Virus record (IMG/VR): IMGVR_UViG_3300022221_000183
Coordinates: 1 to 24,179 of that record
Direction: 5' to 3' (one strand)
DNA from: a virus
Length of the DNA: 24,179 nt
Part shown: positions 15,944 to 21,539 of the stretch, piece by piece
Layout of the letters: the number at the start of each line of letters is the position of its first letter
How positions within the stretch are numbered: the stretch's first letter is position 1
The notes under the pieces: generated by a model
Database searches by the model: none
Seen by the model: the letters and a program-made list of their open reading frames with translations, nothing else
Told to the model about the DNA's origin: nothing
Program-made: the position numbers and the translations under genes

Positions 15944-16114
15944 TTAGTTTCCTCTTGGTTTGTTGTCGCGCTCATTCAGACTGATATCGAAATAAAACAC
16001 TCGTAATACTATCCATCCAAAAATCAAAAATACGCCAGATAAAATAATTGAGTAAACAAACAAAAATAATTGCCACCCTTCGAGACCGCTCAACCACGTA
16101 ATTAAATTATTCAT
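15944..16114 (-). CDS. Small membrane protein
   Basis: A 56-residue protein with one clear transmembrane segment at about residues 15-41 (QLFLFVYSIILSGVFLIFGW, then IVLRVF), a short N-terminus and a charged C-terminus (NERDNKPRGN). ATG 16114-16112 overlaps the end of the gpP-like gene by 8 bases and has GGGAG about nine bases upstream; its stop lies just before the next gene's ATG. No family recognised. Small membrane proteins in this place might affect host or phage exclusion, but that is speculation. Confidence 0.6.
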   Translation of the reverse strand: MNNLITWLSGLEGWQLFLFVYSIILSGVFLIFGWIVLRVFYFDISLNERDNKPRGN

Positions 16115-16751
16115 CTTTAAAGCTCCCTGGCTTGAATGTATTGATACGTTTAATAATATTTGGAATATCTGATCTGAATTTACATAAATCCAGCATTAAA
16201 CAATAATCAAGTTCGTCTGGATCAGTTTTACGTAGTTTTTTTACTTGTGATATTTGTTCTTTTTTTTCTCTCAGTATTTTTGCTGCTTCATTAATTATTT
16301 TCTTTGTTAGCAACCTTTTTTCTTCACGTTCATCATTGGATAGTAATTTAGATTTATCTCGGATCGGCCTGTTTTTTTGGTGATACATTTCAGGTGTGTG
16401 ATTCAAACCAAAACCGTTCTTACTTTGTTTTTTACACATCCCAACAAATTCAGGTAACGATGGTGGCCAAGCTTCACCGCAATCAACACAGGCCCGTAAA
16501 CCGTCTGCCAACTGATCACCAGTTAAACCTCGTAACCCACTGGCCCAGGTTTGAGCAACATCAGTAAGGGTGCCATCAATGATTGCTGATTCACCGTACA
16601 CTGAGGTGAATTTATGCCCGAACAAGTGAGTCATCCGCTCCCATAAGTTCGCCATCACCCGATTGCTCTGATTCCTCAAAGTTTTTTCGGTGCTGAGTGG
16701 CCCGTTCTCCAAGGCTGACTTTTGGGGTATGTGTTTGCTGACTTGCTGCAT
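16107..16751 (-). CDS. Replication protein P-like (helicase loader family)
   Basis: A 214-residue protein with lambda gpP-like blocks: ANLWERMTHLFGHKFTSVYG, TDVAQTWASGLRGLTGDQLA, DGLRACVDCGEAWPPSLPEF, and a lysine-rich helical C-terminus. Lambda gpP brings host DnaB helicase to gpO at the origin. ATG 16751-16749 is selected because TTGGAGG lies just upstream; a TTG 15 bases earlier overlaps that site. The first 140 bases overlap the end of the gpO-like gene in another frame. It is placed directly after gpO as in lambdoid phages. Confidence 0.75.
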   Translation of the reverse strand: MQQVSKHIPQKSALENGPLSTEKTLRNQSNRVMANLWERMTHLFGHKFTSVYGESAIIDGTLTDVAQTWASGLRGLTGDQLADGLRACVDCGEAWPPSLPEFVGMCKKQSKNGFGLNHTPEMYHQKNRPIRDKSKLLSNDEREEKRLLTKKIINEAAKILREKKEQISQVKKLRKTDPDELDYCLMLDLCKFRSDIPNIIKRINTFKPGSFKDE

Positions 16752-17469
16752 TATTGTTGCCTCCAATTCGATTTTTCAGCCACTCAATTTTGATCCCTTT
16801 CCAGCCTGCCTGGATCGTTTCGTTGATTGCGTCAACTGGGGTTAATCCGATAGCGGGTGCTTTCACTGCTTCGGCCATTGCTAAATCAAGAGCGTGCTGC
16901 GTGAGTGGTGCTTTAAGTTTTTTCCGGTGCTCAATAAAATCCTTTGCCGAACCTTCAGTCACACCATCAGGCAAGTTTGATAAATCGTAAGGTTCTTTCT
17001 TCTTTACCTTTACTTCTTCTTTTACCTTTACCTTTTCTTTTACATTTGTGGCATTTCCGCTAACATTTACCCAGTTTTCGACGGAATTTATACCGTTAAT
17101 TATGTAATCAACGACAACAACAACAGATTTCTTCTTTTTAGCTGCTTCAAAAAAACGCTTCTGAATAGCCTTTGAAGTCAGAATATTGTGTGAATTATGT
17201 AATTCTTGATTGAAGACATTCCTTTCCAGACATACATTAATGCAGTCGGAAACCTCGTTTACGTCAATATCTATTTTTTTCTTAATCAGTAAATGAAGGT
17301 CTTTATTGTTGGTAACGTAATACCCTTCATTACTATAAATCATCTGCCAAACACTGATTAAAACAGCTAATCCAATCGCCCCTTTTTCAATTAAATACAT
17401 TTCGGTCTTGTCGTCAAATTGACAATCAAGGGGGAAGTAATCAATACCTTGTTTGGTGGGTCTGGCCAC
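16612..17469 (-). CDS. Replication initiator, Lin1244/DUF4373 N-terminal domain (gpO position)
   Basis: A 285-residue protein. The N-terminus (ARPTKQGIDYFPLDCQFDD, then GAIGLAVLISVWQMIYSNEG) matches the Lin1244/Lin1753 (DUF4373) domain found in phage replication initiators. After a Lys/Val/Glu repeat linker (residues about 145-160), a C-terminal block with LTQHALDLAMAEAV and GWKGIKIEWLKNR resembles the end of gpO-like proteins. It probably binds the origin, which in lambda lies inside O; here I see no clear iterons inside this gene. GTG 17469-17467 abuts the CII-like stop. Confidence 0.75.
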   Translation of the reverse strand: MARPTKQGIDYFPLDCQFDDKTEMYLIEKGAIGLAVLISVWQMIYSNEGYYVTNNKDLHLLIKKKIDIDVNEVSDCINVCLERNVFNQELHNSHNILTSKAIQKRFFEAAKKKKSVVVVVDYIINGINSVENWVNVSGNATNVKEKVKVKEEVKVKKKEPYDLSNLPDGVTEGSAKDFIEHRKKLKAPLTQHALDLAMAEAVKAPAIGLTPVDAINETIQAGWKGIKIEWLKNRIGGNNNAASQQTHTPKVSLGERATQHRKNFEESEQSGDGELMGADDSLVRA

Positions 17470-17772
17470 CTATTTCACACCATGACCGCTTTTCATCGAC
17501 TCCAAACCATCTTCAGAAAAGGTCAACATTGCGTCATATTTTTTCTGTGGCAGACATACAAAATCTTTCTGCACCACTTTAAAACCGAAAGCACCGAGAA
17601 AGGCTTCAACTTTATCAATAGTTATACCCGCTGCATTCGCGGCAAAATACTTAGCTACCGTGTCAACACTAACCTGTTCACCCTGAATAGCTGACATCCG
17701 CTGTGATATTTGATCATTAGTCAAATTATCTTCAGCGCGAATACTTAATATTGAACTGTGTAATTTACACAT
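17470..17772 (-). CDS. CII-like transcriptional regulator
   Basis: A 100-residue protein in the cII position, between cro and the replication genes. Residues about 18-68 look like a helix-turn-helix domain: TNDQISQRMSAIQGEQVSVD as the first helices, VAKYFAANAAG as the recognition region, and TIDKVEAFLGAFGFKVV as the closing helix, similar in spacing to lambda CII. The ATG at 17772 has AGGTGA upstream. Lambda CII binds direct repeats one helical turn apart; the 10-bp-period array just upstream of this gene would suit such a protein. The CII call is inferred from position and layout, not a firm sequence match. Confidence 0.55.
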   Translation of the reverse strand: MCKLHSSILSIRAEDNLTNDQISQRMSAIQGEQVSVDTVAKYFAANAAGITIDKVEAFLGAFGFKVVQKDFVCLPQKKYDAMLTFSEDGLESMKSGHGVK

Positions 17773-17784
17773 AGTCTTTCACCT

Positions 17785-17890
17785 GGAACGGGTTGGAACG
17801 GCCGGGAATGATCTGGAATGGCCGGGAATCACTTGGAACGAAAATGATTTGAATAGAAAACAATGTGAACTTTAGTGAATGCACTGGAAT
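17785..17890 (+). repeat. Helically phased 10-bp array of GGAAYG motifs
   Basis: Six copies of GGAACG/GGAATG/GGAATC start exactly every 10 bases (17785, 17795, 17805, 17815, 17825, 17835). After a 20-base gap come TGAAC, TGAAT and GGAAT at about 17866, 17876 and 17886, again 10 bases apart. All copies face one side of the helix. The array begins 13 bases upstream of the CII-like start and covers the non-coding stretch up to the small membrane-protein gene. It is probably a protein-binding array; a pRE-type promoter control region is the leading idea. Confidence 0.85.
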
Positions 17891-17900
17891 CACCGGTTGG

Positions 17901-18062
17901 TTATGCTTTTCTTAGTTTGGAAATGCCGGACTTAGCCAGCGAGGAAAATACAGTGACGAATAACGAAAGCCAAAACAGACAACAAAAAAATGCACGCGCT
18001 ATCGGAGGAATAACACGTGCAATATTTACTCGAGATCCTTTTATTGTTGTTGTCTGGTTCAT
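17901..18062 (-). CDS. Candidate small membrane protein between cro and cII-like gene
   Basis: A 53-residue frame with a strong hydrophobic segment (IARAFFCCLFWLSLFVTVFS, residues 21-40) and basic flanks (MNQTTTIKGSRVNIAR at the start, KSGISKLRKA at the end). AGGT lies seven bases before ATG 18062-18060. It follows the Cro-like stop by 20 bases in the same direction. A competing plus-strand frame covers the same DNA but would be antisense to cro. Probably real, but unsupported by any family recognition. Confidence 0.45.
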   Translation of the reverse strand: MNQTTTIKGSRVNIARVIPPIARAFFCCLFWLSLFVTVFSSLAKSGISKLRKA

Positions 18063-18082: not shown

Positions 18083-18337
18083 TTATGAAGATCGGGCTTG
18101 GCGTAAATCTGCGCTGGCATCAAGTAACTGTTTTTTGGTGTACTTGGGTTTTCCTTTCTCAAGGTTCCTATTCGCCATTTTTACAATTATTTCGGTGTAC
18201 TTGGTTTCACCTGAGTTTTCAGATCGCGGTAATCCAAGCTGACCCCATTTGTGAACGGATGGGGGTTTGCGTTTACAGGCAGAACCGACCTTTGTCTGCC
18301 CCCCTGCCGTCTTTATTGCTGATTGGATGATATTCAT
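18083..18337 (-). CDS. Cro-like repressor (Cro/YdaS type)
   Basis: An 84-residue DNA-binding protein with the Cro/YdaS-type pattern AIKTAGGQTKVGSACKRKPP, SVHKWGQLGLPRSENSGETK for the turn and recognition helix, and a late KYTKKQLLDASADL. It is the first gene of the leftward operon. Its ATG (18337-18335) lies only a few bases beyond the start expected from the promoter at 18374-18347, and no ribosome site is visible, so its message may be leaderless or nearly so. It should repress the divergent CI-like gene and tune early transcription. Confidence 0.75.
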   Translation of the reverse strand: MNIIQSAIKTAGGQTKVGSACKRKPPSVHKWGQLGLPRSENSGETKYTEIIVKMANRNLEKGKPKYTKKQLLDASADLRQARSS

Positions 18338-18346
18338 ATGATCGGA

Positions 18347-18374
18347 TTATTAGCTAATAGCGAACACCTGTCAA
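18347..18374 (-). promoter_or_regulatory. Leftward early promoter (cro promoter)
   Basis: On the minus strand, TTGACA (18374-18369), a 16-base spacer, and TAATAA (18352-18347) form a near-consensus sigma-70 promoter. The predicted start is about 18339-18341, within a few bases of the Cro-like ATG. Two operator sites overlap it: one covers the spacer and -10, the other the -35 edge. Confidence 0.75.
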
Positions 18375-18390
18375 CAGCCAATAGCGGATA
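18348..18390. promoter_or_regulatory. Operator pair A (CI/Cro-type)
   Basis: Read on the minus strand, two related 19-mers lie 24 bases apart: TATCCGCTATTGGCTGTTG (18390-18372) and TGTTCGCTATTAGCTAATA (18366-18348). Both fit the dyad-like consensus TATTCGCTATTGGCTAATA shared with the second control region at 19787-19829. A weak half-site (TACTAGCCGAATG, 18403-18415) at the CI-like start could be a third operator. Confidence 0.75.
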
Positions 18391-18412
18391 TTGTGCGCGG
18401 CATACTAGCCGA

Positions 18413-18886
18413 ATGAAAGATTCAGCGAAAATGGAAAAAATAGAATTTGGCCAGAGATTCAGTCAAGCTATTGATAACAGTGATTTAAAAGGGCTTTCAA
18501 ATGCAAAGATGGGAAAGGCATTTGGTTTAAGTTCAACCACTGTTTGGGAATTTCGGAATGGTGACAAAATGCCATCAACTGTAAATGGTGTGGTTATTGC
18601 GAAGCGTTTGAAGGTTTCCTTTGAATGGTTAATGACCGGGCGCAAAATAGAATTGTTACCAAATGTTACAGGTTTACAAAACCCTACGAATATATTAAAT
18701 ATAGATAGTGGGCTTTTAACTTCATGTATTCAGTCGGCTATAGACAACATTCCCGATGCACCTAACAAGGCAAAGGCGATATATGCTGAACTAATGTATG
18801 AAGCTAAATGCGGGGATTCTGAATCAGATATTACTGAGACAGATAGAAGCAACGTCATCAATCTAATGATTGGGCGTGTGTCGTGA
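18413..18886 (+). CDS. CI-like repressor (HTH, no S24 peptidase domain)
   Basis: A 157-residue protein with an N-terminal XRE helix-turn-helix: EFGQRFSQAIDNSDLKGLSN, MGKAFGLSSTTVWEFRNGDK as turn and recognition helix, and KRLKVSFEWLMTGR. The C-terminal 80 residues do not show an S24 autocleavage domain, so RecA-triggered self-cleavage is not expected. It runs opposite to the Cro-like gene across operator pair A, the CI position. ATG 18413 lies 4 bases after a TACTAG -10-like box and lacks a ribosome site, hinting at a leaderless transcript as for lambda cI from pRM; the next Met (18431) is an alternative start. Confidence 0.7.
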   Translation: MKDSAKMEKIEFGQRFSQAIDNSDLKGLSNAKMGKAFGLSSTTVWEFRNGDKMPSTVNGVVIAKRLKVSFEWLMTGRKIELLPNVTGLQNPTNILNIDSGLLTSCIQSAIDNIPDAPNKAKAIYAELMYEAKCGDSESDITETDRSNVINLMIGRVS

Positions 18887-19054: not shown

Positions 19055-19479
19055 TTACCTTTCACTTTTGCCTGATTGATTTTGTTGTATAGACTTTTTC
19101 GGTGTCCCCGTACAATAACATCATCAGGTAGATCCATTAAGTACGACAAACAATAATTTGCCATCTGAAGATTACCTTGATCGGCAAACATTTCACCAGC
19201 CTTCCTGAAGCCTGGCGCCGCAATTTCTAAAGTTACCGGGAATTCACAATACCCGTGTGCCCAGGACATTGCTTGAACCAAAATACCTGGCGCCGTTGTC
19301 TTATTGGCCAGTTGCCGGATCTGGCATTCAGCCTGTTTACCGTGCAAACCTATCGCCAATTCCCATAATTGAAAGGCTTTTTCATAATTTCCGGCCTTAT
19401 AAGCTGCGATACCATCTGCAGTTTCGTTAGCCTGGACCTGGCCGGCCAGTAAAAATAATACTGCAATCAGTGTTTTCAT
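19051..19479 (-). CDS. Secreted Sel1/TPR-like protein (lysogenic-module gene)
   Basis: A 142-residue protein with a signal peptide (MKTLIAVLFLLAGQVQA, cleavage after residue 17 before NETADG) and a Sel1/TPR-like first repeat DGIAAYKAGNYEKAFQLWEL; further helices follow with scattered cysteines. It should be periplasmic. ATG 19479-19477 overlaps the stop of the second HTH gene (TAATG), so the two form a unit. By position it corresponds to the rex genes of lambda, suggesting a lysogen-expressed role such as superinfection exclusion or host modification, which is inference only. Confidence 0.65.
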   Translation of the reverse strand: MKTLIAVLFLLAGQVQANETADGIAAYKAGNYEKAFQLWELAIGLHGKQAECQIRQLANKTTAPGILVQAMSWAHGYCEFPVTLEIAAPGFRKAGEMFADQGNLQMANYCLSYLMDLPDDVIVRGHRKSLYNKINQAKVKGN

Positions 19480-19688
19480 TACCCTTCCCTTCCGGTTCTC
19501 AACCATTCCATATTCACGTTCAGCACTTTGGCCAGTGAAAAAATATGCCCTATATCGGCCGTTTTCACTGCATCGGTTAAATAGTTATACAACTCACCCG
19601 GTGAAATATCGCTTTTATCGGACAATTGAACCTCAGATATCCCCGCAGCCGTCATGGCTGACCGAATACGGGTACCGAAAGTATCCAT
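19479..19688 (-). CDS. Second HTH (XRE) regulator, single domain
   Basis: A 69-residue helix-turn-helix protein: MDTFGTRIRSAMTAAGISEV, QLSDKSDISPGELYNYLTDA and LAKVLNVNMEWLRTGREG, ending in the same EWLxTGR block as the CI-like protein. An in-frame ATG at 19721 would add 11 residues; I prefer 19688 because it gives the usual short N-terminus, though neither has a strong ribosome site. It is transcribed leftward away from operator pair B and coupled to the secreted-protein gene. It may be a second Cro/CI-like repressor reading the shared operators. Confidence 0.7.
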   Translation of the reverse strand: MDTFGTRIRSAMTAAGISEVQLSDKSDISPGELYNYLTDAVKTADIGHIFSLAKVLNVNMEWLRTGREG

Positions 19689-19786
19689 AAAGCGTATGCC
19701 GCCAATCGGTGTATTTATCATTTTTCTCAGTCTTTCCAGTCCGGTTTTTATCTAATTTTTCAACGATCTGACCGTAACATATAAGA

Positions 19787-19829
19787 TATTCGCTATTGGC
19801 TATTGACAAGTATTCGCTTTCGGCTAATA
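19787..19829. promoter_or_regulatory. Operator pair B, near copy of pair A in inverse orientation
   Basis: TATTCGCTATTGGCTATTG (19787-19805) and TATTCGCTTTCGGCTAATA (19811-19829) lie 24 bases apart, the same spacing as pair A. Over about 48 bases the two regions are highly similar once one is reverse-complemented. They should be recognised by the same repressor, controlling the rightward recombination operon and the leftward HTH/secreted-protein unit. Confidence 0.78.
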
Positions 19830-19830
19830 A
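19803..19830 (+). promoter_or_regulatory. Rightward early promoter (pL-like)
   Basis: TTGACA (19803-19808), a 16-base spacer and TAATAA (19825-19830) form a near-consensus promoter with the same geometry as the cro promoter. The start is expected near 19837, giving a leader of about 30 bases with AGGAG before the first gene at 19866. The second operator fills the spacer. Confidence 0.78.
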
Positions 19831-19865
19831 TTTCACCATCGAATCAATAAACAGGAGTTACCCAA

Positions 19866-20566: not shown

Positions 20567-20863
20567 GTGATATCAAACAATCAAACACGAAGATTAAGCG
20601 CAATGTCTAGTTCCAGTATTGTAGGTGGCGACATAAAAGCCGCTTTGAATGAAATTAATAATTTAAGAGATATTAATTCTGATCTTCTGGAAACCACCGA
20701 AATATTATTAAAGTGGATTATTGCTGAACGTGAAGCAACGTATGACCTTTCCACTAATCAAGAAGGTGAATATTCGTCAGATGAAGATAGACAGGAAGTA
20801 GCTGAATACGATGAATTCATTATGAAAGTACAAGCCGTAATCAAAAAAGCAAAAGGTGAATAA
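20567..20863 (+). CDS. Uncharacterised early protein
   Basis: A 98-residue protein; GTG 20567 is chosen because TAAGGAAA lies upstream, while a TTG 18 bases earlier overlaps that site. It has a Ser-rich start, then a helix with DIKAALNEINNLRDINSDLL and TTEILLKWIIAEREA, an acidic loop and a closing helix (FIMKVQAVIKKAKGE). It may be a helical hairpin or coiled-coil protein. No family recognised. The next gene starts just after its stop. Confidence 0.6.
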   Translation: MISNNQTRRLSAMSSSSIVGGDIKAALNEINNLRDINSDLLETTEILLKWIIAEREATYDLSTNQEGEYSSDEDRQEVAEYDEFIMKVQAVIKKAKGE

Positions 20864-20864
20864 A

Positions 20865-21539
20865 ATGATAATTAAATTTAGAGCAATTTTAGATGTTAAT
20901 ACAGCCATCGAGGCAGTGAAACAAAACGGCTATACCTTGCGGTATGTCAAAGACCAATCAGAGGCCGTGTGCATCGAGGCAGTGAAACGAAACGGCGATG
21001 CCTTGCAGTATGTCAAAGACCAATCCGAGGCCGTGTGCATCGAGGCAGTGAAACAAAACGGCTATGCCTTGCGGTATGTCAAAGACCAATCCGAGGCCGT
21101 GTGCATCGAGGCAGTGAAAGAAGACGGCTATGCCTTGCAGTATGTCAAAGACCAATCCGAGGCCGTGTGCATCGAGGCAGTGAAACAAAACGGCTATGCC
21201 TTGCAGTATGTCAAAGACCAATCCGAGGCCGTGTGCATCGAGGCAGTGAAACAAGACGGCTATGCCTTGCAGTATGTCAAAGACCAATCCGAGGCCGTGT
21301 GCATCGAGGCAGTGAAACAAGACGGCTATGCCTTGCAGTATGTCAAAGACCAATCCGAGGCCGTGTGCATCGAGGCAGTGAAACAAAACGGCTATACCTT
21401 GCGGTATGTCAAAGACCAATCAGAGGCCGTGTGCATCGAGGCAGTGAAACAAAACGGCTATGCCTTGCAGTATGTCTTGATTAAAGATTTATTTATCAAA
21501 ATCGCAGGCATGATTAATATCGAAATTGATATTTCATAA
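20865..21539 (+). CDS. DUF4116-type tandem-repeat protein
   Basis: A 224-residue protein made almost wholly of nine 22-residue units of the form IEAVKQNGYALQYVKDQSEA with small changes at a few sites (Q/R/E, N/D, Y/D, A/T, Q/R). The unit resembles DUF4116 repeats, which are common in some protists, giant viruses and bacteria and are thought to form helical-hairpin solenoids. ATG 20865 has AGGTGA upstream. The last 24 residues (DLFIKIAGMINIEIDIS) are unique. Such a repeat protein in a phage early operon, just before csrA, has no known function. Confidence 0.75.
   Translation: MIIKFRAILDVNTAIEAVKQNGYTLRYVKDQSEAVCIEAVKRNGDALQYVKDQSEAVCIEAVKQNGYALRYVKDQSEAVCIEAVKEDGYALQYVKDQSEAVCIEAVKQNGYALQYVKDQSEAVCIEAVKQDGYALQYVKDQSEAVCIEAVKQDGYALQYVKDQSEAVCIEAVKQNGYTLRYVKDQSEAVCIEAVKQNGYALQYVLIKDLFIKIAGMINIEIDIS
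20907..21476 (+). repeat. Nine 66-bp coding tandem repeats
   Basis: Units begin about every 66 bases from 20907 with ATCGAGGCAGTGAAAC and are nearly identical; the ninth is shortened. Unit length is a multiple of three, so copy-number change keeps the frame. High identity, including silent sites, points to recent expansion or ongoing homogenisation. Two other frames are also open across the array only because the unit lacks stops in them. Confidence 0.95.

Follow-up and report, generated by a model that had tools for sequence, protein, structure and literature searches.

A one-turn repeat array beside a CII-like gene in a viral genome fragment: a putative enlarged CII-type operator

Between the Cro-like and CII-like genes of a 24,179-nucleotide viral sequence (IMG/VR record IMGVR_UViG_3300022221_000183, analysed at its full length and hereafter called the window), six copies of the pentamer GGAAY form a phased array that is not explained by chance. 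We favour, with somewhat better than even confidence, the view that this array is an enlarged putative operator whose recognition word has changed and which would serve the CII-like protein of the gene 12 bp away. This reading is built on sequence comparison and draws its support from the lambda-type position, the exact one-turn periodicity, the one-turn repeats found at many other CII-like genes, and the changed word seen in the more diverged of those genes. As to function, the best reading is a putative role in pRE activation, in autoregulation, or in both.

Words, spacing and helical phase of the array

The repeats and a nearby hexamer are as follows.

17785..17839, plus strand: main array of six GGAAY words, starting at 17785, 17795, 17805, 17815, 17825 and 17835
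17850..17854, plus strand: out-of-phase TGAAT between the strong and the weak series
17866..17890, plus strand: weaker series of TGAAC (17866), TGAAT (17876) and GGAAT (17886), 10 bp apart
17902..17907, plus strand: TATGCT, a weak candidate for the -10 element of a pRE-like promoter directed towards cI

Throughout the main array the words start at steps of exactly 10 bp, as the initial annotation had stated, and each reads RTTCC on the coding strand of cro and cII. The core GGAA is present in six of six copies at every position, the fifth base being C or T, and the 5-bp spacers are variable. In the 24-kb window the pair GGAAY-N5-GGAAY occurs five times (0.30 expected), always inside the main array, and no second GGAAY array was found there. 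An array of this kind was absent from Markov-1 simulations (60 x 20.8 kb), in which no 4-mer reached more than four copies at periods of 7 to 30, and TRF independently detected the repeat at 17794-17840. Rfam and tRNA searches of the sequence gave no match.

The weaker copies described by the initial annotation do number three and do lie 10 bp apart, but the 20-base gap said to precede them is only approximate, because the weak series begins 31 bp (not 30) past the last strong GGAAY copy and the out-of-phase TGAAT at 17850 lies in between. It had also been claimed that all motifs lie on one face of the DNA, and roughly they do. When helical phase is computed at 10.5 bp per turn, the strong copies cover about 86 degrees of the helix, since a 10-bp step drifts by about 17 degrees per copy, and the strong and weak copies together cover about 137 degrees.

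The lambda-like early region

Read along the minus strand, the early region that contains the array runs from OR/pR through cro and a tR1-like terminator to the array itself, and then through the CII-like gene to O and P.

16107..16766, minus strand: P-like helicase loader
16612..17469, minus strand: O-like replication initiator, with internal repeats at 16997-17047 as a candidate origin
17470..17772, minus strand: CII-like regulator gene of 100 aa, with 12 bp separating its start codon from the array
17779-17784: ribosome-binding site AGGTGA of the CII-like gene
17991..18021, minus strand: intrinsic terminator in the tR1 position, with a 13-pair stem, separating the Cro-like gene from the array
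18083..18337, minus strand: Cro-like gene, YdaS-like by a weak match
18346..18391: OR-like operator region, which holds the pR-like promoter
18374-18346, minus strand: pR-like promoter TTGACA-17-AATAAT, 11/12 matches
18413..18886, plus strand: CI-like repressor gene, into which a pRE transcript would be expected to run
19786..19831: OL-like operator region, an inverted copy of OR (46 nt, 85% complementary)

The inverted OR-like and OL-like pair flanks the CI-like gene, as expected of OR and OL, and the CII-like gene is situated between cro and O in a divergent cI/cro immunity region. The corresponding order in lambda is cro, the nut/tR1 region, cII and O, and there the opening codons of cII carry the CII boxes, GCAA-N6-GCAA. 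In the window a further small HTH gene of the CI-like type (80 aa, 19479-19721, minus strand) separates the CI-like gene from the OL-like region.

The TATGCT hexamer follows the last weak copy at a distance of 11 bp, compared with 13 bp in lambda, and no sigma-70 -35 partner was found for it; a consensus scan recognised no plus-strand promoter, which counts against the operator reading. At the DNA level, phage and plasmid collections yielded no meaningful relatives of the window, the single match being one of 89 bases in a methyltransferase gene, and the nearest relatives of the initiator include a Thiotrichaceae MAG.

The assignment of the 100-aa protein to the CII type is based on a match to phrog_725 (E 6e-5) and on comparison with a profile of nine CII-like proteins (hhalign, 79%). 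A PDB sequence search returned no match. The protein also had no match to PF05269, and a single-sequence structure model was poor (pLDDT 67), with no CII match and no meaningful PDB match; both results count against the operator reading. So does the absence of homologues from the viral contigs, phages and genome contigs searched and from 369 genomes of the class to which the host of the nearest relative belongs; because the protein has no close relative in these collections, CII-like genes were compared at the level of the family. Among array-bearing contigs, phrog_725 gave one weak match only.

Repeats at other CII-like genes and the proposed operator

For this comparison, ten CII-like genes were gathered from genomes by a protein model, regardless of repeats and with HipB-like hits excluded, and further CII genes were taken from annotated phages via lambda CII. 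Strict 10-bp direct repeats lie near the gene start in six of the ten. Four of these carry GCAA-N6-GCAA (L213, L388, L393 and L394), a pair that is also present in lambda, phage DE3/21, HK97 and PP9W2. The other two have different words, namely three copies of GGGGATGGCT at -27..-3 relative to the gene start in L214, and about 2.6 copies of AGGAAAGAAC at +25..+50 in L215. Control gene starts carried GCAA-N6-GCAA in 5 cases out of 939, and a lag-10 score of 13 or more in none of the 939, so that no control equalled the arrays of L214, L215 or the window; in a wider frame, two of 728 controls reached an array-level score, both being A-rich low-complexity runs. Counted against the operator reading are the four of ten CII-like genes that have no strict repeat, and the Pseudomonas phage CII genes, the majority of which, among those examined, likewise lack one.

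The likeness to the lambda CII site at pRE suggested by the initial annotation is backed by the lambda-type gene order and by the 10-bp repeats at other CII-like genes. The lambda pRE site and its equivalents in phage 21/DE3 and HK97 share with the window array direct repeats spaced exactly 10 bp and a location at the 5' end of cII, after cro/tR1 and before O. In lambda, the two TTGC boxes to which CII tetramers bind lie within the first codons of the gene, whereas in the window six GGAAY words and three weaker ones precede the start codon and TTGC-N6-TTGC is absent near cII, so the further statement that the motif differs from that of lambda and that the array is longer was confirmed. The L214 prophage (L371) has the layout of the window (CI, Cro, terminator, repeats, CII, O-like initiator), its Cro is of the YdaS/P22_Cro type, and its CII scores above the PF05269 cut-off. 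Both it and L215 (L373) resemble the window in that one-turn repeats of a non-TTGC word mark where a CII-like gene begins within a cI-cro-cII-replication layout, but they differ from it in having two to three copies and other words, and share no detectable DNA homology with it. YdaT of prophage CP-933P likewise takes the place of CII, in a cro(YdaS)-cII arrangement, but it recognises the inverted repeat TTGATT-N6-AATCAA (PMC9986795) and not a direct-repeat array.

Searches for further examples added little. Among viral contigs, 99 stretches had four TTCC words followed by a start codon, and no other HTH or CII-like gene was recognised by eye behind them; a scan for three GGGGA words returned L214 only, and a literature search on CII/TTGC sites found nothing.

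A change of word may be linked to a change in the protein. The presumed recognition helix contains an S/T-R-W/M stretch in the CII proteins of the genes with a GCAA pair, and it is off this pattern in L214 (SQVSRIV), in L215 (GQLSKMV) and in the window protein (VDTVAKYF), the last positioned by eye because MAFFT gave no alignment there. These three cases are suggestive of a recognition word that shifts where the putative recognition helix leaves the S/T-R-W/M pattern.

If the array is such an operator, pR transcripts that pass the tR1-like terminator would give rise to the CII-like protein, which, by comparison with lambda CII, may bind neighbouring RTTCC/GGAAY words on one face of the DNA, so that several molecules could load side by side along the array. 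It is plausible that this loading of several regulator molecules on the putative operator is co-operative. The bound protein might activate a pRE-like plus-strand transcript running from about 17910, antisense to cro, into cI, and/or the occupied array might impede pR read-through into cII-O-P and act as a feedback brake; the length of the array would be expected to give the switch a steeper response or greater sensitivity. A bolder version, which we hold only tentatively and at clearly less than even confidence, is a CII-type activator that forms a co-operative row of several tetramers on five to nine one-turn sites, with a steepness beyond that of the single lambda site, in a family whose word would drift freely and whose one-turn spacing would stay fixed. 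Should the array prove to be the operator of the CII-like protein, the CII site would not be limited to two TTGC boxes, word and copy number would vary between phages with the 10-bp step kept, CII operators could be found without a known motif, and phages would offer a natural experiment on the influence of copy number on the lysis-lysogeny decision.

Alternative readings of the array

Long one-turn arrays as such are already known from phage 186, whose Apl protein has seven operators between the early promoters, in the form of direct repeats spaced 10-11 bp apart, and five more at attP; binding requires three or more sites (PMC7498355). The window array shares with these operators the form of a long array of 6-bp words, directly repeated 10-11 bp apart, in a switch region; co-operative loading is a feature of Apl and a proposal for the window. 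One could suppose that the array holds the operators of an Apl/Cox/Xis-type RDF or switch regulator that polymerises head-to-tail on one-turn direct repeats, all the more as the switch region of the window has six direct repeats at 10-bp steps and its copy number suits Apl better than lambda CII. We nevertheless think this unlikely. Apl is an excisionase whose array is placed between pR and pL and again at attP, whereas no RDF-like gene was recognised near the array or in the 24-kb fragment, the adjacent regulators being only Cro-like and CII-like, and the window has no second array, attP lying outside the fragment. A related thought is that the words are arm-type sites of a phage tyrosine integrase that were either misplaced in the early region or captured by it. 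In other phages, phased GGAAY arrays do lie no more than about 300 bp from tyrosine integrase genes (L069, L121, L027, L016/L019/L068 and L047), and such arrays of four or more copies beside integrases elsewhere count against the CII operator reading. Yet the window contains no integrase domain anywhere, the array stands between cro and cII and does not adjoin int, and most of the GGAAY-array contigs searched have no integrase nearby, so that we regard arm-type sites as quite improbable here. The arrays at those integrases have 4-6 copies, belong to unrelated phages and resemble arm-type sites in their own right.

Iterons are direct repeats, and the initiator gene is the next but one downstream of the array; both points favour the iteron-like element proposed by the initial annotation, to which, in the present terms, the O-like initiator would bind, whereas the silencing element named there as another option is purely hypothetical. 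The iteron proposal was not supported and now seems very improbable indeed, because relatives of the initiator lack the array: a phased TTCC/GGAA array stood upstream at none of the related loci checked, and in nearly all homologues examined short repeats lie inside the initiator gene, as in lambda O. Alternatively, the array could be a recent minisatellite devoid of function, or an element acting at the level of the transcript as an RNA leader. It can in part be read as 20-bp units, and duplication therefore probably contributed to building it. The restriction of conservation to the core, with diverged spacers, makes a plain minisatellite unlikely; in the 369 genomes, moreover, a four-copy pattern occurred only as near-perfect tandem repeats, and the leader RNA folds no better than shuffled sequences (z -0.75). 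Taken as a pair, the minisatellite and the RNA leader have, in our judgement, little probability.

Several repeats of other kinds were noted along the way. Those within the O-like gene, roughly at nt 420-510, are of the GTAAAG/GTAAAT type with 6- to 18-bp periods and differ in sequence between relatives; they occur in the window (16997-17047) and in the homologues L124, L125, L139, L142, L146, L152 and L126, and are candidate origin iterons. A gene at 20856-21539 on the plus strand of the window contains about nine 66-bp tandem repeats (20906-21476, 96% matching) that encode DQSEAVCIEAVKQNGYALQYV repeats. Finally, a phased TTCC array lies upstream of a family of genes whose products start with MNN.FSLPGIK, and it is kept in four diverged phage contigs (L029, L252, L274 and L297).
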